From contig JAOQAA010000498.1 in assembly GCA_025963815.1 (NCBI GenBank), positions 1 to 22,105 on the forward strand: 22,105 bases of DNA, read 5' to 3'. The number at the start of each line of letters is the position of its first letter. Position 1 is the stretch's first letter. Positions 1 to 18,835 of this stretch are shown here, piece by piece. The notes beneath the pieces were generated by a model. The model worked only from the letters and a program-made list of their open reading frames with translations, was not told the DNA's origin and did no database searches. This stretch comes from Capsulimonas sp. (GTDB lineage Bacteria > Armatimonadota > Armatimonadia > Armatimonadales > Capsulimonadaceae). The position numbers and the translations under genes are program-made.

Positions 1-428
1 TCGATAATAATGACGCCCTTCGGATCGAACAGATACCCGACGCTGCCGGATTCTCCGAGCCGTCCGCCCGTTTTGGTAAAGTAGGAGCGAACGTCAGAGA
101 CGGTCCGCTGCTTGTTATCCGTGAGGCACGCGACCAGGATGGCGACGCCGCCGGGGCCGTATCCTTCGTAGGTCATTTCTTCGTAGGATGCGCCCTCGAG
201 TTCGCCGGTTCCGCGCTGAATGGCGCGCTTGACGTTATCGGCGGGCATCGACGCCTCGCGGGCTTTCGCCATGGCGTTGCGCAGCGTGATGTTGGTGTCG
301 GGGTTGCCGCCGCCGGCTTTCGCCGCCACAATGATTTCCCGGGCGATCTTCGTAAAGATCTTCCCGCGGTCGGCATCCATCTTGCCCTTCTTTAGGCGGA
401 TATTATGCCATTTACTATGTCCAGACAT
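1..428 (-). CDS. yebC: YebC/PmpR family transcriptional/translational regulator, 3' end outside window
   Basis: The reading frame begins at the ATG complementary to 426-428 and runs off the left edge, so about 142 of the usual ~240-250 residues are present. The N-terminus [19 protein letters not shown] is the signature of the YebC family. It is followed by [39 protein letters not shown] and [10 protein letters not shown], all family hallmarks. Members are cytoplasmic proteins described as DNA-binding regulators (PmpR) and, more recently, as ribosome-associated factors that relieve stalling at proline stretches; which applies here cannot be told from sequence. A ribosome-binding site (AAGAAGGTGA) sits just upstream of the ATG, and a promoter lies at 481-510. 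In some bacteria yebC lies near ruvC/ruvA; the downstream neighbour here is outside the window. Confidence 0.96.
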
Positions 429-480
429 ACACTGTCACCTTCTTGAACGATATTCTTCGCATTTGGTTTCGCGTGATTCT

Positions 481-510
481 ATTATAGTACGAACCGATGG
501 GATTTGGCAA
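481..510 (-). promoter_or_regulatory. Sigma-70-type promoter for yebC
   Basis: On the minus strand, TTGCCA (complement of 505-510) is separated by 18 bp from a perfect TATAAT (complement of 481-486). Predicted transcription starts near 474, giving a leader of about 46 nt before the yebC ATG. Confidence 0.7.
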
Positions 511-523
511 CCGTGCGGGAGAG

Positions 524-619
524 ACCTATCCCCCACCGAAGTAAACTTCGGCCTCCCCCTTTCCCAGCAAGGCCCTTCGAGCGGGAATGGGGGTGTTTGT
601 AATTATATTCCAGGCGAGT
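524..619 (+). repeat. Two-hairpin intergenic repeat, copy A
   Basis: This is a 96-bp element from ACCTAT to GGCGAGT. It has a C-rich lead; hairpin 1, a 6-bp stem CCGAAG/CTTCGG around TAAA (533-548); hairpin 2, a C-rich arm (CCCCCTTTCCC) pairing with GGGAATGGGGG around an AGCAAGG-containing loop; an AT-rich stretch; and the terminal box TCCAGGCGAGT (609-619). Homology with copy B continues through GTTCCGTTTTGT to 631 and into a GAGGAG motif. It lies between the divergent yebC and GxGYxYP genes. Copies B (3121) and C (3369, inverted) share the layout and near-identical length. The 429-714 gap otherwise holds only the yebC promoter. Confidence 0.8.
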
Positions 620-714
620 GTTCCGTTTTGTGAGAGGAGTAAATGTGGAGTGAGAGAGGTAAACTGGCGAAGAGTTTGGTTTCGTGGGAGCTTTTGTACG
701 GAGGTCTGTTCGGA

Positions 715-3141
715 ATGAAGAAACGATGGCCATTGACGGCCGTTTTGCTTTTGTCTTCGACGGCGTTCTCGGCAATCGGCGCGAGGGCCGCAGATCCGCC
801 GGCGAGTGCGCCCCGCGCGGCGGTTATGCTGCAAACGGATATGCCGGTCACGGATCTGCTTGGGCGGGTTTCTCCCCGGCAGATCGCCGCCGATCTTACT
901 GCGGCGGGCGTCCCCACGGACCTTCTGGACGTCAGCGCGCTGGCCGATCCCGCGAAGCTGAATATTCAAAACTACGCCGTTGTTGTGACGCCCTATGGCA
1001 ACTTCTTTCCCAAAGAAGCGTTTGCCAATCTTCGAGCCTTTCACCAATCGGGCGGCGGTTTCGTTTTAACCGGCATTCCGTTCACACATCCGGTGGTGCG
1101 TGTGAAGGACAGCAAGGGAAATTGGACATGGTCGGACATGGGGCACGACCCGAATGCGGCGCTGTTCGGCCCGGACGGCATCGGCGTCGGCGGTTTCGCG
1201 GAGCCGTCGGGGATCGATATCAGCGTCTCGCCGCGCGATCCTCTCGGCCTGAAAGATCTCTTCGGCCCAGCCAGACCCAGTTCCGTCCAGACGCTCGATC
1301 CCACGACGCTGCCCGCCGAAGATCAAGTCATCCCCATCCTCGTATCGGGAACGCGCCCGGCTGCCGCGATGATCGTGCATCACGATGCGGCGTTCCAAGG
1401 CGCGGTGGATATCTGGACAACCCACCCGGATATCGGTAATCGGGATGCTTATTTTACGGAACAGATGATGGAACGCGGCGTCGTCGCGATTCTTGCGCAG
1501 AAGAAACTTCTCTCGCCTGAACGCACGGCCGCCGTTCTGACGAGGATCAAGAATGTTGCCCCGCCAAAGCAATACACAGGACTAAAGCTGCCGACGCCGC
1601 CCCGGCCCTATGAGACGTATCAGCCGCGCAGCAGCGCGCCCGCCGAGCATCTCTATGTTGCTGACGTGCGCCAGTCGGCGTCGGACGAACGTCTGCTGCT
1701 CAGTACGCTCCAGGGGATCGTCAATCGCAAACAGCCGCGCATTTATCTGATCTTCCGCGATAGCGATGAGTTCTGGCTCCAGCAATTGCAGGCGCAGGGG
1801 ACCACGGGCGCGCCCATCATGACGGCGGACCCGCTTTCACTGCTGACGACTTTCCAAAAAGATTACAAAGGCGCGGTCGTCACCGATCCGAACGTCTATG
1901 TCAGCCCTCATGTCGCCGTGGATATCGCCGGCCTGGAAGACCAGATCGTCGCAAGCCCGGACCTGGCAAAAAAACTGAATCTGAAGATCAAGACGGATTT
2001 GCGCGGCAAGTTCAAAGACGACGCCGACGCCTATCGCTATGTCCGTACGAAGCTCTTGCGCCGCCTCAACCCTTACCTGTCCATTTCCCTGGACGCGCCG
2101 CTGGACACGGGCGCCATTGATCAGATCGTCGCCGGGCGCGGGCAGGCGCTTTGGGTAACAGGCCCGAGAGAGCAGGACAAGCCCGGCGCCAACGGGCGCG
2201 CGGAGCTGATCGAGATCGAAGCTATCTTCGCCAAAATGCCGCTGAACTCCGTCGTGCGCGGCTACTGGTACGCCGGCGACAGCAACGGCATCGGCGAAGG
2301 CCCCGGGGTCTCCCTGGCGTCGCGGTTCGGCAAGGTCACCATCGTATCGGACAACGTCTCCAACTTCAGCGTCTTCAGCGGGGCGCCCGCCAAGACCTAC
2401 AAGCAAACGCACAAGCCCGCGCCGACGCTCGATCCCACGAAGGTGTATGTGGCTGTCACGATCTCCGATGGCGACAATCTCTGCACCTGGGAAAATAACT
2501 TCCAGGAATACTTCAACGATCCGCTGCACGGAACATTCCCGATCGGCTGGGGCATGGGGCCGACCCTGCTGGATGTCGCGCCGAACATGGTCCAATGGTA
2601 TTACGACCACGCCACCCCGAACGACGAGTTCTTCTGCGATGTCAGCGGTATCGGATATATCTATCCGCCCGACTGGGCCACAGCGCTCAAAGACCGCGAC
2701 GACGCCCTGACGTCGTTCTTCGGCTGGACCGCGAAGTATATGGACAAGCTGGATCTGAAGACGATCCGGCACATGAACGTCCAGCCGGCCGACATCGGGG
2801 AGATGGGCGTTCATCTCCCGAACACCAAGTTCTTCGTTCCTGATTACGGCTACGCTGGCGAAAAGGGTTACGACGCGATGACGTACCCACTGCCCACCGG
2901 ACAAACTGTCTTTCGCACGGTCACCGGCGGTAATCCGCGCGAAATGGCCGCTCAGATCAAAGAACGGGTGGGGGATCGGCGCCCGGCGTTTGTGAACGCC
3001 TTCATTGTGAACTGGGGAACTCACCTTGGGGATATTAAGAAGAGGCTGGATGAGTTGGGACCGAATTATGTGGCGGTGACGCCTTCACAACTGAATGAGC
3101 TGTATTTGAAGGCGCGAGTGACCTATTCCCCCGCGCTTTAG
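715..3141 (+). CDS. Secreted GxGYxYP-family protein (putative carbohydrate-active enzyme)
   Basis: The 808-residue protein begins with a clear signal peptide (MKKR, a hydrophobic core, then a likely cut after the ARA near residue 25), so it is probably exported. The N-terminal ~280 residues resemble a glutamine-amidotransferase-like fold (hydrophobic strands, a GGGFVLTG turn). The second half carries ISDGDN at about 583-588 and the name-giving GIGYIYP at about 645-651. GxGYxYP proteins are putative glycoside hydrolases by association with polysaccharide-use genes; no reaction is established that I can cite. An in-frame ATG at 643 also has a GAGGAG upstream, but that motif belongs to the repeat shared with copy B and would add 24 residues before the signal peptide. 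The ATG at 715 has its own GGAGG 10 nt upstream and is preferred. The last six residues (TYSPAL) and the stop lie inside repeat copy B. The gene appears monocistronic. Confidence 0.85.
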   Translation: MKKRWPLTAVLLLSSTAFSAIGARAADPPASAPRAAVMLQTDMPVTDLLGRVSPRQIAADLTAAGVPTDLLDVSALADPAKLNIQNYAVVVTPYGNFFPKEAFANLRAFHQSGGGFVLTGIPFTHPVVRVKDSKGNWTWSDMGHDPNAALFGPDGIGVGGFAEPSGIDISVSPRDPLGLKDLFGPARPSSVQTLDPTTLPAEDQVIPILVSGTRPAAAMIVHHDAAFQGAVDIWTTHPDIGNRDAYFTEQMMERGVVAILAQKKLLSPERTAAVLTRIKNVAPPKQYTGLKLPTPPRPYETYQPRSSAPAEHLYVADVRQSASDERLLLSTLQGIVNRKQPRIYLIFRDSDEFWLQQLQAQGTTGAPIMTADPLSLLTTFQKDYKGAVVTDPNVYVSPHVAVDIAGLEDQIVASPDLAKKLNLKIKTDLRGKFKDDADAYRYVRTKLLRRLNPYLSISLDAPLDTGAIDQIVAGRGQALWVTGPREQDKPGANGRAELIEIEAIFAKMPLNSVVRGYWYAGDSNGIGEGPGVSLASRFGKVTIVSDNVSNFSVFSGAPAKTYKQTHKPAPTLDPTKVYVAVTISDGDNLCTWENNFQEYFNDPLHGTFPIGWGMGPTLLDVAPNMVQWYYDHATPNDEFFCDVSGIGYIYPPDWATALKDRDDALTSFFGWTAKYMDKLDLKTIRHMNVQPADIGEMGVHLPNTKFFVPDYGYAGEKGYDAMTYPLPTGQTVFRTVTGGNPREMAAQIKERVGDRRPAFVNAFIVNWGTHLGDIKKRLDELGPNYVAVTPSQLNELYLKARVTYSPAL

Positions 3142-3215
3142 CGCGTTTCCCCCTTTTCCCAGCAAGGGGCTAAAGCCCGGGAAAAGTGGTGCTGATAATT
3201 ATAATCCAGGCGAGT
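3121..3215 (+). repeat. Two-hairpin intergenic repeat, copy B (overlaps stop codon)
   Basis: This is a 95-bp copy with the same order of parts as copy A. ACCTATTCCCC is followed by hairpin 1 (CGCGC-TTTA-GCGCG); hairpin 2 (CCCCTTTTCCC pairing with GGGAAAAGTGG, around an inner GGGCT/AGCCC stem); an AT-rich stretch containing TATAAT; and TCCAGGCGAGT (3205-3215). Near-identity with copy A continues to about 3227. The TAG stop of the GxGYxYP gene (3139-3141) falls inside hairpin 1. Confidence 0.8.
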
Positions 3216-3273
3216 GTTCCGTTTTGTTTGAGGAGAGTTTCCAGATAAGAAATTCTTCGTAGTCCACGACAAG

Positions 3274-3369
3274 ACTCGCCTGGACCTCAGTTACGAACGC
3301 CCTTTTTCCCGCCCGAAGGGCCTTGCTGGGAAAAAGGGAATCGAGCTTTAGCTCGACGGGGGAATAGGT
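3274..3369 (-). repeat. Two-hairpin intergenic repeat, copy C (inverted relative to B)
   Basis: Read on the minus strand from 3369, this 96-bp copy gives ACCTATTCCCCC, hairpin 1 (TCGAGC-TAAA-GCTCGA), CCCTTTTTCCC pairing with GGGAAAAAGGG around an inner GCCC-TTC-GGGC stem, a degenerate spacer, then TCCAGGCGAGT. It begins three bases after the stop codon of the minus-strand gene 3373-3744. Together with copy B it makes a ~250-bp imperfect inverted repeat filling the gap between two convergent genes. Confidence 0.8.
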
Positions 3370-3372
3370 TCC

Positions 3373-3744
3373 TTACTCGCACTGCTCCGAAATAATAAGC
3401 CGCTGAAGTTCTTTCAATGAATAGGGGTCGATGTCGATCTCGGGAGCGGTCGGGGGGGCATCGTTGGCCGTTGGCCCGGCGGCGTCGCTGGCGATGCAGG
3501 CGGCATAGCGGCGCACGGCTTCGATCTGCGCCTGCACCTGCGCCATTGCGTCTTCCGGAGCCCCGGCCGTCTCGCCGGATGCGGCGGCCTGAGCGAGATC
3601 TTCGCACAGCGTGCAGATCTGCTCGATACTGACCGCCAGTGATTGACTGGTCTCTCGCCAGAGCTTGATCTGCGACAGATCTTCCTGCCGCCGCGACTCC
3701 CGACCCTGCTTGCGCCCGCGCGATAACCATTCCATGGGAAACAT
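3373..3744 (-). CDS. Small hypothetical protein
   Basis: I do not recognise a family. The preferred start (MFPMEWLSRGRKQ) has AAGGAAG about 8 nt upstream and gives 123 residues; upstream in-frame starts lack this site. The protein has a basic N-terminus (SRGRKQGRESRRQ), then a long amphipathic helical stretch (about 25-90) containing CTLC, an Ala/Pro-rich linker (TANDAPPTAPEIDID), and a short C-terminal helix (LKELQRLIISEQCE). There is no signal peptide or membrane segment, so it is probably cytoplasmic. Codon use is GC-rich at third positions, consistent with coding. It is convergent with the GxGYxYP gene and divergent from the DUF202 gene. The CxxC is single, so a zinc site is not supported. 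Confidence 0.6.
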   Translation of the reverse strand: MFPMEWLSRGRKQGRESRRQEDLSQIKLWRETSQSLAVSIEQICTLCEDLAQAAASGETAGAPEDAMAQVQAQIEAVRRYAACIASDAAGPTANDAPPTAPEIDIDPYSLKELQRLIISEQCE

Positions 3745-3846
3745 TGTGAGACTTCCTTCTGCCTTGCTTTGCCGCTTCCCGCGGCGATAGTTCCATTGTC
3801 GGAGTGTGATCCGCCTGACCAAAGAGGGGAGAGGAAAAACCAGTAT

Positions 3847-3876
3847 TTGAACGGGCCGCGCTTCCTATGCTACACT
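3847..3876 (+). promoter_or_regulatory. Promoter for the DUF202 gene
   Basis: TTGAAC (3847-3852) is followed 18 bp later by TACACT (3871-3876), which is preceded by TG in extended -10 position (TGCTACACT). Transcription would start near 3883, leaving a leader of only about 10 nt before the first possible start. Confidence 0.55.
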
Positions 3877-3892
3877 GGCATTAACGCCGGTT

Positions 3893-4282
3893 ATGATGGA
3901 TACACAAAGCATGAACTCTCCCAAAGTGACCGAGCACTTAGCCAACGAGCGGACATTTCTCGCCTGGGTGCGCACGGGCATCGCGCTGATGGGCTTTGGT
4001 GTACTGATCGTCCGCCTGCGCTATTTCGAGCTGCAATTGTCGTCCATTGGGGCGCCCCCGCACCATCCCTCACACGGCCGCGCCACGCTGCTCGGCCTGC
4101 TCTTTGCCGTCTTCGGTCTCCTCGCCGTGATGTTCTCGGCGATCACCTACTCAAAAACCCGAGCGATGATCGACGACGGCAACTACCAGCCGCCTAGCCG
4201 CATCGTCATGACCTGCGTCGCCGTCCTGTCCGTCCTTGGGATCGGAACCGTAGCCTATCTGCTCACACTGGGCGACTCTTAG
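3893..4282 (+). CDS. DUF202 (YidH-type) inner-membrane protein
   Basis: The 129-residue protein has the DUF202 signature LANERTFLAWVRTGIALMGFG near the N-terminus. It has three hydrophobic spans at roughly 24-40, 60-83 and 104-124, separated by a short His/Pro-containing loop (GAPPHHPSH) and a polar loop (TRAMIDDGNYQPPS). The family is widespread in bacteria and fungal vacuoles (VTC1-like), sits in the cytoplasmic membrane and has no settled function. Possible starts are 3893, 3896 and 3911; none has a convincing ribosome-binding site, and the family motif begins soon after 3911, so the true N-terminus could be up to six residues shorter. It stands alone, with its own promoter upstream and a separate promoter downstream for the BlaI-like gene. 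Confidence 0.88.
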   Translation: MMDTQSMNSPKVTEHLANERTFLAWVRTGIALMGFGVLIVRLRYFELQLSSIGAPPHHPSHGRATLLGLLFAVFGLLAVMFSAITYSKTRAMIDDGNYQPPSRIVMTCVAVLSVLGIGTVAYLLTLGDS

Positions 4283-4317
4283 ATTTTCACGCATATCATT
4301 TTTCCTGAAAATAAGGC

Positions 4318-4346
4318 TTGACATTCGTCGTTTAGTATAGTAAACT
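4318..4346 (+). promoter_or_regulatory. Promoter of the blaI/blaR1-like operon
   Basis: A perfect TTGACA (4318-4323), a 17-bp spacer and TAAACT (4341-4346) form a strong sigma-70-type promoter. The -10 hexamer and start region are covered by two palindromic operators. Confidence 0.8.
4330..4345. promoter_or_regulatory. Putative BlaI-type operator O1
   Basis: GTTTAGTATAGTAAAC has perfect 5-bp arms (GTTTA/TAAAC) and lies over the spacer and -10 element, so a bound dimer would block RNA polymerase. Its centre is 27 bp from that of O2. Confidence 0.65.
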
Positions 4347-4356
4347 TAGTTCAGTC

Positions 4357-4372
4357 GTTTAGTTTACTAAAT
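4357..4372. promoter_or_regulatory. Putative BlaI-type operator O2
   Basis: TTTAGT-TT-ACTAAA is a perfect 6-bp-arm palindrome just downstream of the predicted start site. It shares TCGTTTAGT with O1 as a direct repeat at 27-bp spacing. Paired palindromes over a promoter are the known arrangement for BlaI/MecI autoregulation. Confidence 0.65.
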
Positions 4373-4395
4373 CTAGTCTGTTAGAGGGATGCGAT

Positions 4396-4785
4396 ATGGC
4401 CGATAAGCCACTGAAATTGGGCAAGGTGCAGCTGCGGATCATGCAGGTGCTTTGGGACGAGGGCGAAGTGACGGCGCGGCGTGTGACGGAGGTGCTGAGC
4501 GAGGTCGAGCCGATTGCGCACAGCACGGTGCAGACGCTGATGCGTACGCTGGAGGAGAAGGGCGCAGTTGGTCATGAGGTCCGGGATCGGACCTTTGTAT
4601 TCCGGGCGATTCGGCCTCGCGAGGAAGTGACGGAGACGGCGACACGCGATCTGCTGTCCCGGGTCTTCGGCGGATCTGTGTACGGGTTGGTATCACATTT
4701 GCTGACGCATGAGGAGGTGTCCTCGGAAGAGATCGGGCGTCTGCGTGAACTCATCGAGCGGGAAGGGCGGGAGGCGAAGCAATGA
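4396..4785 (+). CDS. BlaI/MecI/CopY-family transcriptional repressor
   Basis: The 129-residue protein matches the BlaI/MecI family in length and layout. The N-terminal winged helix (about 8-75) contains LGKVQLRIMQVLWDEGEVTARRVTEVL and the recognition-helix region STVQTLMRTLEEKG. The C-terminal ~50 residues would form the dimerisation arm, which is cleaved in the classical Bla system. It should bind the two palindromes at 4330-4372 and repress its own operon until the co-encoded M56 protease is activated. A GAGGG motif precedes the ATG. The stop overlaps the start of the next gene by 4 nt (ATGA), indicating coupled translation. The inducing signal is not evident; there is no beta-lactamase gene in the window, so the symbol blaI is not assigned. 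Confidence 0.92.
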   Translation: MADKPLKLGKVQLRIMQVLWDEGEVTARRVTEVLSEVEPIAHSTVQTLMRTLEEKGAVGHEVRDRTFVFRAIRPREEVTETATRDLLSRVFGGSVYGLVSHLLTHEEVSSEEIGRLRELIEREGREAKQ

Positions 4786-7322
4786 ACTCAGAAATGCTGT
4801 TTGAGCTGTGCCGGTCGGCGATCCAATCAGGGATCGTCCTGCTGCTGCAATCGTGCGCCGTGCTGCTGGCGGGGATGGGAATCGGCCGAGCCGCCCATCG
4901 CTTTGGTCCGTTTGTCCAGTCGTTTGTTTATCGCATGACGCTGGCGACTCTGGCGGTTTTGATCCTGACATCCGTATACGCCGCGCCTTCGATGCGCGTC
5001 CTTTGGCGGGTCTCATTGCCCTCGCATCACATCGCACAGTCCGCGCCTCTTTCGGTTGGTGCGCCTCCTTTGGCAAATGCTGTCCCGCCTATGCAAGGTT
5101 CGGAGACTGCCGCCCCTTCTTCCACCCCCGCCTCTTCCGTAGCGGGAGCCAATGTGGGGGGCGTTCCCGCGTCGGCCACTCAGAAGGCGGCTTCGGCTAC
5201 GAAGCCTTCGTGGACGGTGGGCGCCGAGCCGTATTTTGTGGGCGTCGCTCTTTGGGCTGTTGTCGCGCTTTTGCTGCTGGGACGGATTGCATATGGGCAG
5301 ATCGGTCTGGCGCTCCTTCGGCGTAATGGCGTATTGATTTCGACTGGCTCTGAAGCCGACATGGTGCTGGAGTTGTGCCGGGAGCGTTCCATCCGGACGC
5401 TACCTCTGCGGCTTGTTCCGGGAGTTCGGGGGCCGCTGCTCGCCGGGGCCTGGAGGCCGGAAATTTGGCTTCCCGAAGATTTCATCGGAGATACGGAGCC
5501 CAGGGTGTTGAAGGCGGTTCTGGCGCATGAGATTGCGCACTTTGAACGGTCCGACAACGCCTGGATGCTGCTGGCGAAGGTGCTGCGCGCCCTGATGTGG
5601 CCGCAAGCCCTGCTTTGGGCGCTGCGCGCCGAGATGGCGAAGAGTGCGGAGAACGCCTGCGATGCGCTGGTGGTCGATGGCGGATGCCCGCGTCACGAAT
5701 ACGCCGAATGCCTGCTGCTGCTGACCGAGCGCCTTGCGCCGTCGCGCTGGGAACGTTCGCTCGGCGCGAGCGCCGTCCCGTTCCGTTCGCAAATTGGCCG
5801 GCGTATTCAGACCCTGATGAGCGCATCTCAAGGGCTCCGTACGCCTTCAAAATGGATGAAGGCTGGGGCCACGGGCGCCGCCGTGGTCGCGATTGTCGCC
5901 GCGCTGTCTCTTGTCTCGTCCGGAGTTCGAAATCCTCTGACCGTCGCTGACATTGAGAAGAAGGAGACGCCATGGCCGGCCTCGCCAGAGTATCTGGCGC
6001 AGTTCACACTGGCGTCTACAGCTGGAAACAGAGCGGTCCCGGTAACGGTTGCGACGATCTATGGGAAATCGTGGCCGGAAAGCCCGGAAGCTCCTTCGAT
6101 TTTGTCTGATGAGGATCTCGATCTCCTGCGCCTCTGTAAAAAGAGCCAACTTTACAGCATGGGGTACACAACCGGGAGCGGACCCTCGATGCACGACCGA
6201 CAATATCTTGAGGATATTCTAGCGAAGCGCCCGCATTTCTTCTTCGCCGAATATATGATGGGCGTCTGGTGCGCAAAGAACGGCGACAAAACGGGTTACC
6301 AGAGCTGGCTGACTCGTGCTCTTGCCGATGCCCCCGTCGTGATTGCGGGCCGCATCCAATTTAACGATGGCCGCCCTGTTCCAGGTTTTACCTTCGCTCC
6401 CAACTTGGCTTACTTTTCTACCGCCAATTTTATGGAAAACCACAGTGACTACAATGATGCACAGCATCTTGGTTATCCGGAAGTAACAACGGATGCGCAG
6501 GGGTGTTTCTATTTGCCGGCGTTTCATGCGATTACGGAGGTTATGGGCTGGAGTATTGATGCATCCTCGACAGCTCCGCGCTCCTCCGCAGCTGTCGAAA
6601 CGGCGAAACAAATGGTGATGATGATGCCGCAATTTCCGTCACAGGGCGTCAATCGTTTCCGCGCTGCAGGCAAGATCGCGGTGCTGCCGCCAATGATCGT
6701 CCGGCCGTATATGGAGTGGCTTGCGCCGATCAATAAGGCGAACCAATCTATGGATCATCCCGCGAAGGTTCATGGCGCCGCGCTGAAGATCGCCTGGAAG
6801 CCTTATCCGGGCGCGGCGAGTTATGATGCGCAAATTGCGGAAGTCATTCGCCGAACTGATGGCTATAGCGCCACGGATATTGGATATGATACGAAAGAGC
6901 CGCACTTCCATGGTTCGAATGGGGCTGCCTCCACGGAGATTGTTCTAAATCTTGGCGGGAATGCGCCGACATTTCATCGGGGACGTATCTATCAAATCTC
7001 CGTCAGTCCTCGGGATGCTCAGGGGCGGCAGCTGTCCAACTCGCGCGATTACTACTTCCAGCCACTGGATGCTCTGGCGCCGCTGTCGATCAGTAAGGCG
7101 AATGTGCTGAAGACGTTCCCGTCCGGAACTGTCGTAGATTCCGTCACTCAAAGCGGTGATTTGACGACCATCCGTGGAACTATCCCGCATACGGTGAACT
7201 TGCAGACGGTGAGCGACCGCGACTTCTTCGGCAGGCGTCTGGACCATCTCGTGTCGCAGTCGCACTATGTTGGCGGCGTCGATCGGAACGATCTGAAGTT
7301 CGAGATCGCGTATAAGCACTAG
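4782..7322 (+). CDS. BlaR1/MecR1-like M56 metallopeptidase with an unusual C-terminal sensor region
   Basis: The 846-residue membrane protein has spans at about 14-36 and 47-68, a Pro/Ala/Ser-rich linker (~80-140) and a span at ~150-178. The M56 zinc-protease region carries HEIAH at 249-253 and the glutamate helix ENACD at 290-294; another span lies at ~361-381. This matches BlaR1/MecR1, whose cytoplasmic protease domain initiates removal of the BlaI repressor. The remaining ~460 residues (390-846), expected to be extracytoplasmic, show no penicillin-binding SxxK/SxN/KTG arrangement. Instead there is a VVIAGRIQFNDGRPVPGF segment like a carboxypeptidase-regulatory-like beta domain (~519-590) and a KIAWKPYPGAASYDAQIAEV stretch like a fibronectin-III or related beta-sandwich (~669-760). 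It is translationally coupled to the repressor. Ligand unknown. Protease assignment is strong; C-terminal domain names are inferred from motif style only. Confidence 0.88.
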   Translation: MNSEMLFELCRSAIQSGIVLLLQSCAVLLAGMGIGRAAHRFGPFVQSFVYRMTLATLAVLILTSVYAAPSMRVLWRVSLPSHHIAQSAPLSVGAPPLANAVPPMQGSETAAPSSTPASSVAGANVGGVPASATQKAASATKPSWTVGAEPYFVGVALWAVVALLLLGRIAYGQIGLALLRRNGVLISTGSEADMVLELCRERSIRTLPLRLVPGVRGPLLAGAWRPEIWLPEDFIGDTEPRVLKAVLAHEIAHFERSDNAWMLLAKVLRALMWPQALLWALRAEMAKSAENACDALVVDGGCPRHEYAECLLLLTERLAPSRWERSLGASAVPFRSQIGRRIQTLMSASQGLRTPSKWMKAGATGAAVVAIVAALSLVSSGVRNPLTVADIEKKETPWPASPEYLAQFTLASTAGNRAVPVTVATIYGKSWPESPEAPSILSDEDLDLLRLCKKSQLYSMGYTTGSGPSMHDRQYLEDILAKRPHFFFAEYMMGVWCAKNGDKTGYQSWLTRALADAPVVIAGRIQFNDGRPVPGFTFAPNLAYFSTANFMENHSDYNDAQHLGYPEVTTDAQGCFYLPAFHAITEVMGWSIDASSTAPRSSAAVETAKQMVMMMPQFPSQGVNRFRAAGKIAVLPPMIVRPYMEWLAPINKANQSMDHPAKVHGAALKIAWKPYPGAASYDAQIAEVIRRTDGYSATDIGYDTKEPHFHGSNGAASTEIVLNLGGNAPTFHRGRIYQISVSPRDAQGRQLSNSRDYYFQPLDALAPLSISKANVLKTFPSGTVVDSVTQSGDLTTIRGTIPHTVNLQTVSDRDFFGRRLDHLVSQSHYVGGVDRNDLKFEIAYKH

Positions 7323-17401: not shown

Positions 17402-18835
17402 ATGTCCGAGTCGATCGGCGGTCAGGGACAACAGCCGCCCTATAATCGGCAGCCGGGAGCCCCTCAGCCCGGAGCGCAGCAGCGTGGAGGATACACTCCT
17501 CCCCAGGCGCAGAATGGCGGCTATACGCCTCCGCAAGGGCAGCAGGGCGGCTATGCTCCTCCTCCGGGGCAGCAGGGCGGTTACGCCCCGCCACCGGGGC
17601 AGCAGGCTCCGCCGCAGCAGGGCGGCTATGCTCCGCCGGCGCAGCCGAACTATGCCCAGAACATGCCTGGCATCGATCAGATGCCCGCCCCCCAAGTGAA
17701 GAAAAAGCCGATCGATCAGGTTCACCTGGACGAACTGCTGGAAGTCATCATCGATATGGGCGGCTCCGACCTTCATATCGCCGCCGGCATTCCTCCTGTC
17801 ATCCGCACCAACGGCGCGCTTGTGCCGACGATGTATGAGAACTGCACTCCGCTGGACGTGCAGCAGATGATGTACGCTATTCTGACCGACGAACAGATCC
17901 AGAAGTTCGAAAGCACCTGGGAGCTGGACTTTTCTTATGCGCTGCAAAAGCGCGCCCGTTTCCGCGTCAATATCTACAAGGATAAAGGAAGCGTGGCGGC
18001 CTCGCTGCGTTTGATCCCGACGAAGATCCCGTCGCTCCAGGACCTGGGGCTTCCGGCGATTGTCGAGAAGCTCACCCATACCAAGCGCGGCTTGATCTTG
18101 GTGACCGGCCCGACCGGTTCGGGAAAATCGACGACGCTTGCGGCGATGATCAACCACATCAACACGAGCCGTTCGGAGCACGTCATTACGATCGAGGACC
18201 CGATCGAGTACTTGCATTCGCACAAGATGTCCGTCATCAACCAGCGTGAGCTGGGAATGGACACCAAGAGCTTCCCGAACGCGCTGCGCGCCTGTCTTCG
18301 TGAAGATCCCGATATCATCCTCGTCGGTGAAATGCGAGACCTGGACACGATGCAGCTCGCGATTTCCGCCGCCGAAACGGGTCACCTTGTCTTTGCGACC
18401 CTACACACCAACTCGGCCGCGACCTCCGTCGACCGTATCGTTGACGGCTTCCCGCCCGGACAACAGGGCCAGGTTCGCCTTCAGCTTTCGAATAATATTC
18501 AGGCCATCATCGCCCAGCAGCTGATCCCGCGCGCCAATGGCCAGGGACGCGTCGCCGTCCAGGAGATCATGATCGCCACCGCCGCTATCCGGAACCTGAT
18601 CCGCGAGGCAAAGGCGCACCAGATCACCTCGGCGATCCAAACCTCGGGTAATGTCGGAATGATTACGACCGACCAGGCGCTGCGCGATCACTACATGCGC
18701 GGCAATATCTCCTACGAAGCGGCGACATCACGTGCGCACAACCTGGACGAGCTGAAGAAAATGCTCGCCATTGACGCCAGCGAGAGCGCTTCGGGAGGAA
18801 GCGGGCCCGCCGGATATCAGCGGCCGCAGCGTTAG
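17402..18835 (+). CDS. pilT: Type IV pilus retraction ATPase PilT with repeat-rich N-terminal extension
   Basis: The 477-residue protein contains a complete PilT: DQVHLDELLEVIIDMGGSDLHIAAG (from ~105), GPTGSGKS (236-243), IEDPIEYLH, DPDIILVGEMRDLDTM, AAETGHLVFATLHTNSA and the diagnostic AIRNLIREAK, which supports PilT rather than PilB. PilT is normally ~345-365 residues and disassembles pili for twitching. Here ~100 residues rich in Gly, Pro, Gln and Tyr precede it, including five decapeptides of GGYAPPPGQQ type (29-83). A short Gly/Ser-rich tail (ESASGGSGPAGYQRPQR) ends it. GAGGAG lies 11 nt before the ATG. It follows pilB after the stem-loop and precedes pilC by 176 nt, where I found only doubtful -10-like sequences. 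Confidence 0.96.
   Translation: MSESIGGQGQQPPYNRQPGAPQPGAQQRGGYTPPQAQNGGYTPPQGQQGGYAPPPGQQGGYAPPPGQQAPPQQGGYAPPAQPNYAQNMPGIDQMPAPQVKKKPIDQVHLDELLEVIIDMGGSDLHIAAGIPPVIRTNGALVPTMYENCTPLDVQQMMYAILTDEQIQKFESTWELDFSYALQKRARFRVNIYKDKGSVAASLRLIPTKIPSLQDLGLPAIVEKLTHTKRGLILVTGPTGSGKSTTLAAMINHINTSRSEHVITIEDPIEYLHSHKMSVINQRELGMDTKSFPNALRACLREDPDIILVGEMRDLDTMQLAISAAETGHLVFATLHTNSAATSVDRIVDGFPPGQQGQVRLQLSNNIQAIIAQQLIPRANGQGRVAVQEIMIATAAIRNLIREAKAHQITSAIQTSGNVGMITTDQALRDHYMRGNISYEAATSRAHNLDELKKMLAIDASESASGGSGPAGYQRPQR
17486..17650 (+). repeat. 30-bp tandem repeats encoding GGY(T/A)PPxGQQ in pilT
   Basis: Four contiguous 30-bp units (17486, 17516, 17546, 17576) encode GGYTPPQAQN, GGYTPPQGQQ, GGYAPPPGQQ and GGYAPPPGQQ. 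After a 15-bp insert (APPQQ), a fifth unit at 17621-17650 encodes GGYAPPAQPN. The protein repeat is tighter than the DNA repeat, as expected for selection on sequence character or for an older expansion. Confidence 0.85.

Follow-up and report, generated by a model that had tools for sequence, protein, structure and literature searches.

Organization of the repeat locus

The window, a 22,105-nt stretch of DNA from Capsulimonas sp. (contig JAOQAA010000498.1), contains an ORF for a putative GxGYxYP glycoside hydrolase, whose final residues and stop codon (TAG, 3139-3141, in the left H0 hairpin) fall within a palindromic repeat. The first-pass annotation had described three copies of this repeat (524-619 on +, 3121-3215 on +, and 3274-3369 on −), and all three places and strands were verified. 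An exact search of the window gave three TCCCAGCAAGG sites; tolerating a single mismatch raised the number to four, compared with 0.43 in shuffled sequences. The repeat is real, but its unit had been misread as 96 bp. Copies 2 and 3 are opposed, with 58 bp between them, and together form a single 249-bp inverted-repeat element, of which each is one arm (Table 1). The same opposed-arm arrangement was found again across the source genome (G000; 69% complete, 734 contigs) and in a second genome of the same genus (G001). Copy 1 is a solo arm whose partner is missing. As read from the sequence, it is placed between divergent genes.

When 3120-3370 was folded as single-stranded DNA, its energy was −66.4 kcal/mol versus −33.7 ± 3.4 kcal/mol for shuffles (z = −9.7). 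Solo copy 1 folded alone gave a weak signal (z = −1.87; 9 of 200 shuffles equal or better). Rfam 15 covariance models at the gathering score found no match in the window. The earlier claim that no named family matches thus holds for Rfam, but the block plan resembles that of the BoxC/PIT/TM repeats.

Table 1 Features of the repeat locus (window positions).
Feature	Position	Strand	Remarks
Solo left arm	524-640	+	Copy 1 (524-619) and centre-proximal part to about 640, without right arm
GxGYxYP putative glycoside hydrolase ORF	643-3141	+	Start may be 715 (read from sequence)
Complete inverted-repeat element, family 1	3121-3369	.	249 bp; arms are copies 2 and 3
Left end block	3122-3132	+	CCTATTCCCCC; candidate third strand of intrastrand triplex
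Hairpin H0 left	3132-3145	+	CGCGC-TTTA-GCGCG
Hairpin H1 left	3149-3189	+	CCCCCTTTTCCC, bulge AGCAAG, inner hairpin, GGGAAAAGTGG
H1 left inner hairpin	3167-3178	+	GGGC-TAAA-GCCC
Inner arm box	3205-3215	+	TCCAGGCGAGT; pairing possible with 3274-3284
Centre	3216-3273	.	58 bp, separating arms
Inner arm box, right half	3274-3284	−	ACTCGCCTGGA on +
Hairpin H1 right	3300-3338	−	CCCTTTTTCCC / GGGAAAAAGGG, inner GCCC-GAA-GGGC
Hairpin H0 right	3341-3356	−	TCGAGC-TTTA-GCTCGA
Right end block	3358-3368	−	GGGGGAATAGG

Distribution of family 1

Many further copies of this repeat (family 1) are present in G000, which has 52 exact ACCTATTCCCC sites compared with none for the reversed-pattern control. Eighteen full elements were listed in G000, together with forms of about 100 bp and 38-44 bp, and 15 full elements were counted by hand in G001. 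Family 1 thus includes shortened forms and solo arms besides full elements. An IS3-like insertion is present in three G001 copies; apart from these, the elements read reach 322 bp at most. No convincing copy outside G000 and G001 was found among the 81 genomes searched. The exact core pattern gave 0 stretches in a contig collection that may leave out near genomes and that did not show G001, which has the pattern. Restricted to one genus among the genomes searched, family 1 looks like a spreading population.

Conserved blocks, covariation, and triplex motifs

The first-pass annotation had noted that the first stem differs among the three window copies and still pairs (CCGAAG/CTTCGG, CGCGC/GCGCG, and TCGAGC/GCTCGA), and that the second inner stem switches in step (GGGC/GCCC versus GCCC/GGGC); both observations were reproduced. 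Five measures of covariation were applied to the two small hairpins across 65 arms: three of them supported it (0/500 shuffles), and the other two gave values no higher than in shuffles. An H0 stem of at least 4 bp is missing in 14 of the 65 arms, some of which form a CTCGCTTAGGCTCG class. The proposal that structure rather than sequence is kept applies to the two small hairpins only; the CCCCTTTTCCC/GGGAAAAGGGG blocks, like CCTATTCCCC at the end, are conserved in sequence. Hairpins can also be corrected at the DNA level, and covariation alone is therefore no proof of an RNA.

CCTATTCCCC, CCCCTTTTCCC, and GGGAAAAGGGG can be read as a BoxC/TM-type intrastrand triplex whose loops would be H0 and the inner H1 hairpin. 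Such a triplex would account for the fixed sequence of the blocks as against the mere pairing of the loops. A looser test required three consecutive blocks to fit a class II purine-motif triplex and tolerated a single mismatch in each block. It was passed by all three arms of the window, by 31/37 arms of G000, and by 27/28 arms of G001; with the end block shuffled, 8/37 and 4/28 arms still passed. Perfect blocks were found in 21/37 G000 arms and 0/28 G001 arms. In a stricter motif search, none of the copies in the window matched, even when two mismatches were allowed in the third strand; the family-1 loops are the H0 and H1 inserts of about 17 nt, outside the 1-6 nt accepted by the published finder. 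Three loci of a second palindrome family, tested singly (L383, L392, and L400), failed the looser test.

DUF559 nuclease genes within the palindromes

In one family-1 copy of G001, 675 bp long, the position corresponding to the 58-bp centre of the window element is occupied by a gene for a DUF559 nuclease (Vsr/EDxHD fold). This copy has the same ends as the gene-less elements, as in MITEs and their larger, gene-bearing counterparts. Its protein scored 105.3 bits against PF04480 (DUF559; curated cut-off, 20.6), and the conserved acidic/His residues of DUF559, six of which are invariant in 12 of 12 sequences, are present in it. No gene-bearing copy of family 1 was seen in G000, at the completeness given above. 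In two other palindrome families of the genus, 35 and 5 pairs, respectively, lack a gene, and each family has a single copy with DUF559.

DUF559 genes elsewhere were enclosed by long inverted repeats at 24/65 and 23/64 loci (20/61 when the four G000/G001 loci that prompted the idea are left out of the 65), compared with 1/27 for the ParE control; most loci (41/65 and 41/64) were not enclosed at the threshold used. BoxC-like triplex motifs lay near 33/65 and 36/61 DUF559 genes and near 0/27 controls. The association recurs with differing arm sequences in many phyla. In E. coli, the DUF559 gene ycjD adjoins repeated DNA (a median of 13 places per genome); it was set aside as a clean example, being not enclosed and having intergenic regions that fail the triplex motif test. 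Open-licence PMC searches, with CCCTCTCCC among their topics, returned no publication that connects DUF559 with repeats of this kind.

On balance, we favor reading the repeat as a mobile, non-autonomous palindrome of miniature size (REPIN/MITE-like) with a BoxC-like plan, which would be mobilized in trans by DUF559. From its end block inward, each of the two opposed arms contains the hairpin H0, the bulged hairpin H1, and a box for inner pairing. The autonomous form would be a copy with the endonuclease gene at its apex. DUF559 may nick or cut the folded element, and repair may then deposit copies after stop codons, frequently in slots that hold palindromes, with no direct duplication of the target. 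There also seems to be a collapse of elements to short hairpins. Against this reading, the gene was found in only one family-1 copy, that of G001, and a homing-type nuclease accounts poorly for spread to new sites.

We consider it rather unlikely that the DUF559 genes are passengers, that is, homing-type genes settled in the centres of palindromes that are moved by another transposase or by hairpin replication errors. The single gene-bearing copy per family, the central position of the gene, and the kinship of DUF559 to the EDxHD homing endonuclease I-Bth0305I are consistent with such settlement, as is the finding that direct repeats of at least 4 nt at the element ends are no more frequent than in shuffles (1/22 and 1/19 elements; shuffled mean, 0.9). 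However, the recurrence of the association in many phyla with different arm sequences argues against it, and the family-1 elements read, IS3-like insertions aside, are too short for a transposase gene, although longer elements might be missing where contigs break off.

Genomic placement and insertion points

The 3′ end of at least one gene precedes 40 of the 43 distinct elements, and one is divergent. In the sister species, a different palindrome occupies the same slot at several sites. Together with the covarying stems, these placements would also fit bidirectional terminators or mRNA 3′ stabilizers kept by the host, with selection acting on RNA. Two of seven terminator-like sites in positions 1-4500 lie within arms (3357-3340 on − and 574-593 on +), but seven sites are not clearly above shuffles (4.8 ± 2.1). 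The one-genus distribution with its look of a spreading population, and the lack of terminator activity reported for PIT elements in the available part of PMC4666352, further make this explanation improbable.

The flank outside the end block reads KTARTC in G001 and KTMGNG in G000, partly representing stop codons, and was compared with the unpaired GTAG or CGTC tag at the foot of REP hairpins. At two sites (C383, L030 versus L178; C107, L022 versus L414), the element is absent in G001, but an end-like motif is there, namely the gene's own GGGGGAATAGG at C383 and GACCTATTCC at C107. Neither is thus a clean empty site, and the insertion points cannot be fixed from them. Separate GCGCTTCGCG hairpins as possible targets were absent from G001 (spacers, 4-34 nt); insertion into hairpin loops is accordingly not claimed.

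Of the three options first offered for the repeat, a mobile REP-like unit fared best, but its proposed link to a RAYT failed: none of the repeat's motifs, searched as exact matches within about 1.5 kb on each side where the contig allows, occurs at the 12 Y1_Tnp (PF01797) places (22 overlapping loci) of G001 and the 69%-complete G000. Terminal inverted repeats, shortened forms, and solo arms would suit a conventional MITE derived from a DDE transposon, or a RAYT-mobilized REPIN. With no target duplication in support of DDE-type insertion, and no repeat motifs at these Y1_Tnp places, such an origin is very improbable.

Comparison with known systems

The BoxC/PIT/TM repeats, as described in the portion of PMC4666352 at hand, are intergenic G/C-rich three-block palindromes, sometimes arranged as inverted pairs of unlike types, and resemble family 1 in plan; no mobility gene is reported around those of E. 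coli. Family 1 differs from them in its T-rich blocks, its hairpin loops of about 17 nt versus 1-6 nt in the published search, its 249-bp composite, and its nuclease-bearing form. REPs and REPINs likewise form opposed hairpin pairs between convergent or tandem genes and are thought to spread as non-autonomous units, according to the part of PMC3733652 available. Family 1 has the two inverted hairpins and spacer of a REPIN, but its arms are of about 96 nt with two hairpins each, no Y1_Tnp place has the repeat, and the nuclease fold is different.

Homing genes of the EDxHD type have been described in introns, in contrast to the DUF559 gene here, which is housed in a repeated palindrome. The structure 3r3p is named as a mobile intron protein. 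By its conserved residues, the protein of the 675-bp copy belongs with the DUF559/YcjD/EDxHD nucleases (3hrl, I-Bth0305I, and Vsr; PMC1189080, in part). In Thiomargarita, PF12784-type PD-(D/E)XK nuclease genes are reported, some containing homologues of a MITE; that case involves another nuclease family, and no series of gene-less and gene-bearing forms appears in the accessible text (PMC4853749).

CGTC REPs are left without a dedicated enzyme in the consulted part of PMC3733652. Here, a single genus has three families in which copies with and without the gene coexist, and the nuclease gene lies inside or beside palindromes. DUF559 is thus a concrete, testable candidate for the missing mobility factor of palindromes. 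More tentatively, DUF559 nucleases may define their own class of mobile element, in which rare gene-bearing copies of folded, often triplex-capable palindromes would mobilize gene-less ones across many phyla, BoxC/TM repeats included. If so, BoxC/TM repeats would gain the mobility factor that they lack.

A folded inverted-repeat element

The three 96-bp repeats described in the first-pass annotation were present in the window at the positions claimed. Copies 2 and 3 are the opposed arms of a 249-bp element, whose single strand was predicted to fold much more strongly (-66.4 kcal/mol) than shuffled sequences (-33.7 ± 3.4). Copy 1, a solo arm, extends to about 640 and folds weakly when taken alone. 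An ORF with GxGYxYP domains has its 3′ end inside the element, and its TAG stop is located within the loop of the left H0, the outer hairpin of the arm. The counterpart of this gene in G001, a genome of the same genus, has its own stop followed by a different hairpin.

Features located in the window and at other loci of the two genomes
Feature	Sequence	Positions	Strand	Remark
Copy 1	window	524-619	+	
Copy 2	window	3121-3215	+	left arm of element
Copy 3	window	3274-3369	-	right arm of element
249-bp element	window	3121-3369		
ORF with GxGYxYP domains	window	643-3141		
Penicillinase-repressor-like gene, then BlaR1-type M56 peptidase gene	window	4396-7322		
Repeat units of ~30 bp (GCAGCAGGGCGGCTATGCTCC)	window	17479-17637		within ORF 17402-18835
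127-bp copy	L037 (G000)	1444-1570		contains IS-end sequence similar to that of the IS3-like insertion in G001
Copy L098	G001	5646485-5646794		hairpin H1 of one arm is locally expanded, with five 15-nt units of the AGCAAGCTGCTTCCC type in tandem

Distribution of family 1

Further copies of the repeat were found in the genome of the window (G000; 4.77 Mb, 734 contigs, 69% complete), where a stringent core pattern gave 14 matches (reversed control, 0) and ACCTATTCCCC occurred at 52 sites (control, 0). The G000 loci listed included 18 full elements of this family (family 1), 229-322 bp in length, a copy truncated to 178 bp, shortened forms (102, 103, and 127 bp), and three mini copies (38, 39, and 44 bp). 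G001 (7.645 Mb, single contig) had 71 exact CCTATTCCCCC sites; by hand count, its pairs comprised 15 full elements (236-310 bp) and short pairs of 34-40 bp (six), 66 bp (one), and 100 bp (one), and there was also one 675-bp pair with a gene. Among 81 genomes searched including G000 (≤10 candidates scored per genome), convincing copies were obtained from G000 and G001 only; 77 gave no match, and two gave a match of just 20-22 nt. Within this set of genomes, family 1 is an interspersed element limited to the genus. The inner box was TCCAGGCGAGT in most G000 copies and TCCATTCACTC or relatives in G001 copies; two G000 copies (L046 and L047) were of the G001 kind.

Three G001 pairs (L159, L175, and L176) shared a two-ORF insertion of ~1.4 kb, located in a spacer or beside H0, that appears IS3-like from inspection of its ORFs. 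Further palindromic shells of differing sequence surrounded the copies at L089, L102, L157, L024, and L025, like nested dolls.

Covariation of the hairpins

The first-pass annotation had proposed, from three copies, that the stems covary. We aligned 65 arms of both genomes (A3) and named the structure to be scored ourselves. Paired cells (93.1% vs 82.8% in shuffles), cells changed on both sides of a pair (111 vs 40.9), and the covariation score (0.261 vs 0.111) all exceeded the shuffles (0/500 reached each value), and the score was at most 0.105 when the partners were slid. Neither pairs with double changes (7 vs 6.7) nor further pair types (18 vs 17.5) were in excess in A3. The proposal held by three of these five measures. 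Because the structure was derived from the same sequences and the arms are related, this covariation supports the structure without proving it. Stems of ≥4 bp, with several different sequences, were found in 51/65 arms for H0 and 57/65 for the inner hairpin of H1.

Genomic position and slot sharing

The position survey, with genes called by a simple script, gave 45 rows representing 43 distinct elements (two rows repeated an element with its outer shell): 19 between convergent genes, 21 tandem, one divergent, one inside an ORF, and one unassigned. Many started ≤30 bp from a stop codon. Direct repeats at element ends were as rare as in shuffles. Palindromic extension past the ends was enriched in G001 (5/19 vs 1.1; largest 4 in 500 shuffles) and not in G000 (2/22 vs 1.7).

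Eleven G000 sites had orthologues among G001 loci chosen for holding the end motif, a biased set. The element was full in both genomes at L018, L020, and L036, and at L038 it was full in G001 and truncated by the contig end in G000. Other sites (G000 vs G001) were full vs mini (L019/L170 and L031/L163), mini vs full (L049/L157), 178 vs 34 bp (L027/L129), 127 bp vs degenerate mini (L037/L162), arm vs mini (L042/L171), and full vs none (L030/L178). Seven more G000 left flanks, picked without regard to G001, were all present there (7/7). These G001 sites held a family-2 palindrome (one), a CCCTCACCCC-type palindrome (two), family 1 (one), a degenerate hairpin (one), a 10-bp end remnant (one), and, at the window's own site, an unrelated perfect hairpin. 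The right flank matched too at 5/7 sites; the window's site (L015) and L016 share the left gene only. Family 1 has shortened forms and shares its slots with other palindromes. The short forms may have arisen by collapse of elements.

DUF559 genes in the palindromes of the genus

One family-1 copy bears a gene: the 675-bp G001 copy has a 133-codon DUF559 gene at its center, with ordinary arms on either side. At E ≤ 1e-10, three DUF559 genes were found in G001 and two in G000. Four of these five loci, with both flanks readable, were inside inverted repeats of 39-126 bp that differ in sequence; the fifth was near a contig end. Families 2 and 3, each with one DUF559-bearing copy, had at least 35 close-arm pairs in G001 and at least 5 in G000, including a weak one (hand count; 40 candidates scored per genome). 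Seven family-2 copies and one family-3 copy were confirmed as gene-less by reading the sequence, and the remaining pairs were so classed by arm spacing. These totals cover families 2 and 3; L195 represents a fourth family.

An alignment of 12 DUF559 proteins (A2) had 20 invariant columns. By sequence, the profile matched 3hrl (1.4e-37) and 3r3p (0.0011), the latter carrying the name "mobile intron protein", and the predicted model (pLDDT 87.4) aligned best with 3hrl, I-Bth0305I, and Vsr. E. coli YcjD is related to Vsr according to PMC1189080. A shared fold indicates the type of nuclease, not a role in mobility. In the preferred reading, DUF559 would cut the folded element and drive its spread.

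DUF559 and palindromes beyond the genus

One script was applied to every DUF559 locus set and to ParE toxin loci, the sole control family, taken from Armatimonadota only (30 loci, 27 scored). The Armatimonadota matches listed included 74 DUF559 loci, 65 of which had 500 bp on both sides; four of the 65 had prompted the idea. The named-genome set was the best 80 of at least 564 relatives; 3 of the 80 duplicate Armatimonadota loci. DUF559 was associated with such palindromes across phyla; by record titles, hosts with a triplex motif nearby include Cyanobacteria, Chloroflexi, Bacteroidota, Proteobacteria, and Planctomycetes. In searches of the openly licensed literature, we found no published link of DUF559 to palindromic repeats.

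Palindromes and strict triplex motifs around DUF559 and ParE genes
Score	Armatimonadota DUF559	Named-genome DUF559	ParE control
Gene enclosed by inverted repeat	24/65	23/64	1/27
Enclosure in shifted windows	3/1101	6/1226	0/487
Hairpin ≥8 bp within 250 bp	45/65	55/64	7/27
Triplex motif within 300 bp	33/65	36/61	0/27
Triplex motif on both sides	14 loci	17 loci	
Triplex motif in windows >700 bp away	7/409	2/415	3/523

At the E. coli sapF-ycjD-fabI locus (L424), repeated DNA (median, 13 places per genome) comes after ycjD, the DUF559 gene. The greater part of a 2-kb query spanning this locus was present in 3362/5426 genomes, and efflux genes adjoin sapF in one inspected strain without it. On Pseudanabaena plasmid pPg_02 (L421), the domain is part of a very large annotated protein near BREX brxC and Uma2 genes; DUF559 is therefore also found in defence-like settings.

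Triplex reading of the blocks

Apart from a single T-to-A change, the nearly invariant end block CCTATTCCCC mirrors CCCCTTTTCC. Purine-motif triplexes place T or A over A:T and G over G:C. Judging from sequence, this mirror, with its T to A change on the G-rich strand, is compatible with these rules (triplex class II as named in PMC4666352). A 9-triad motif was perfect in 21/37 G000 arms and 0/28 G001 arms; with ≤1 mismatch per block, it was found in 31/37, 27/28, and the three window arms, and in 0/358 background pieces from the window. Three results count against the triplex reading. With the end block shuffled, 8/37 (G000) and 4/28 (G001) arms still passed. The stricter search used for DUF559 (exact pairing, more G) gave no match in the window's own copies. 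L382, L386, L413, and L416 of families 3 and 5 passed the motif test, and family-2 loci L383, L392, and L400 failed it. The family-1 blocks may form a triplex in cells. Family 1 has the same block plan as the published TM repeats, but its loops greatly exceed the lengths used in the published search, and therefore we did not apply the TM label to it.
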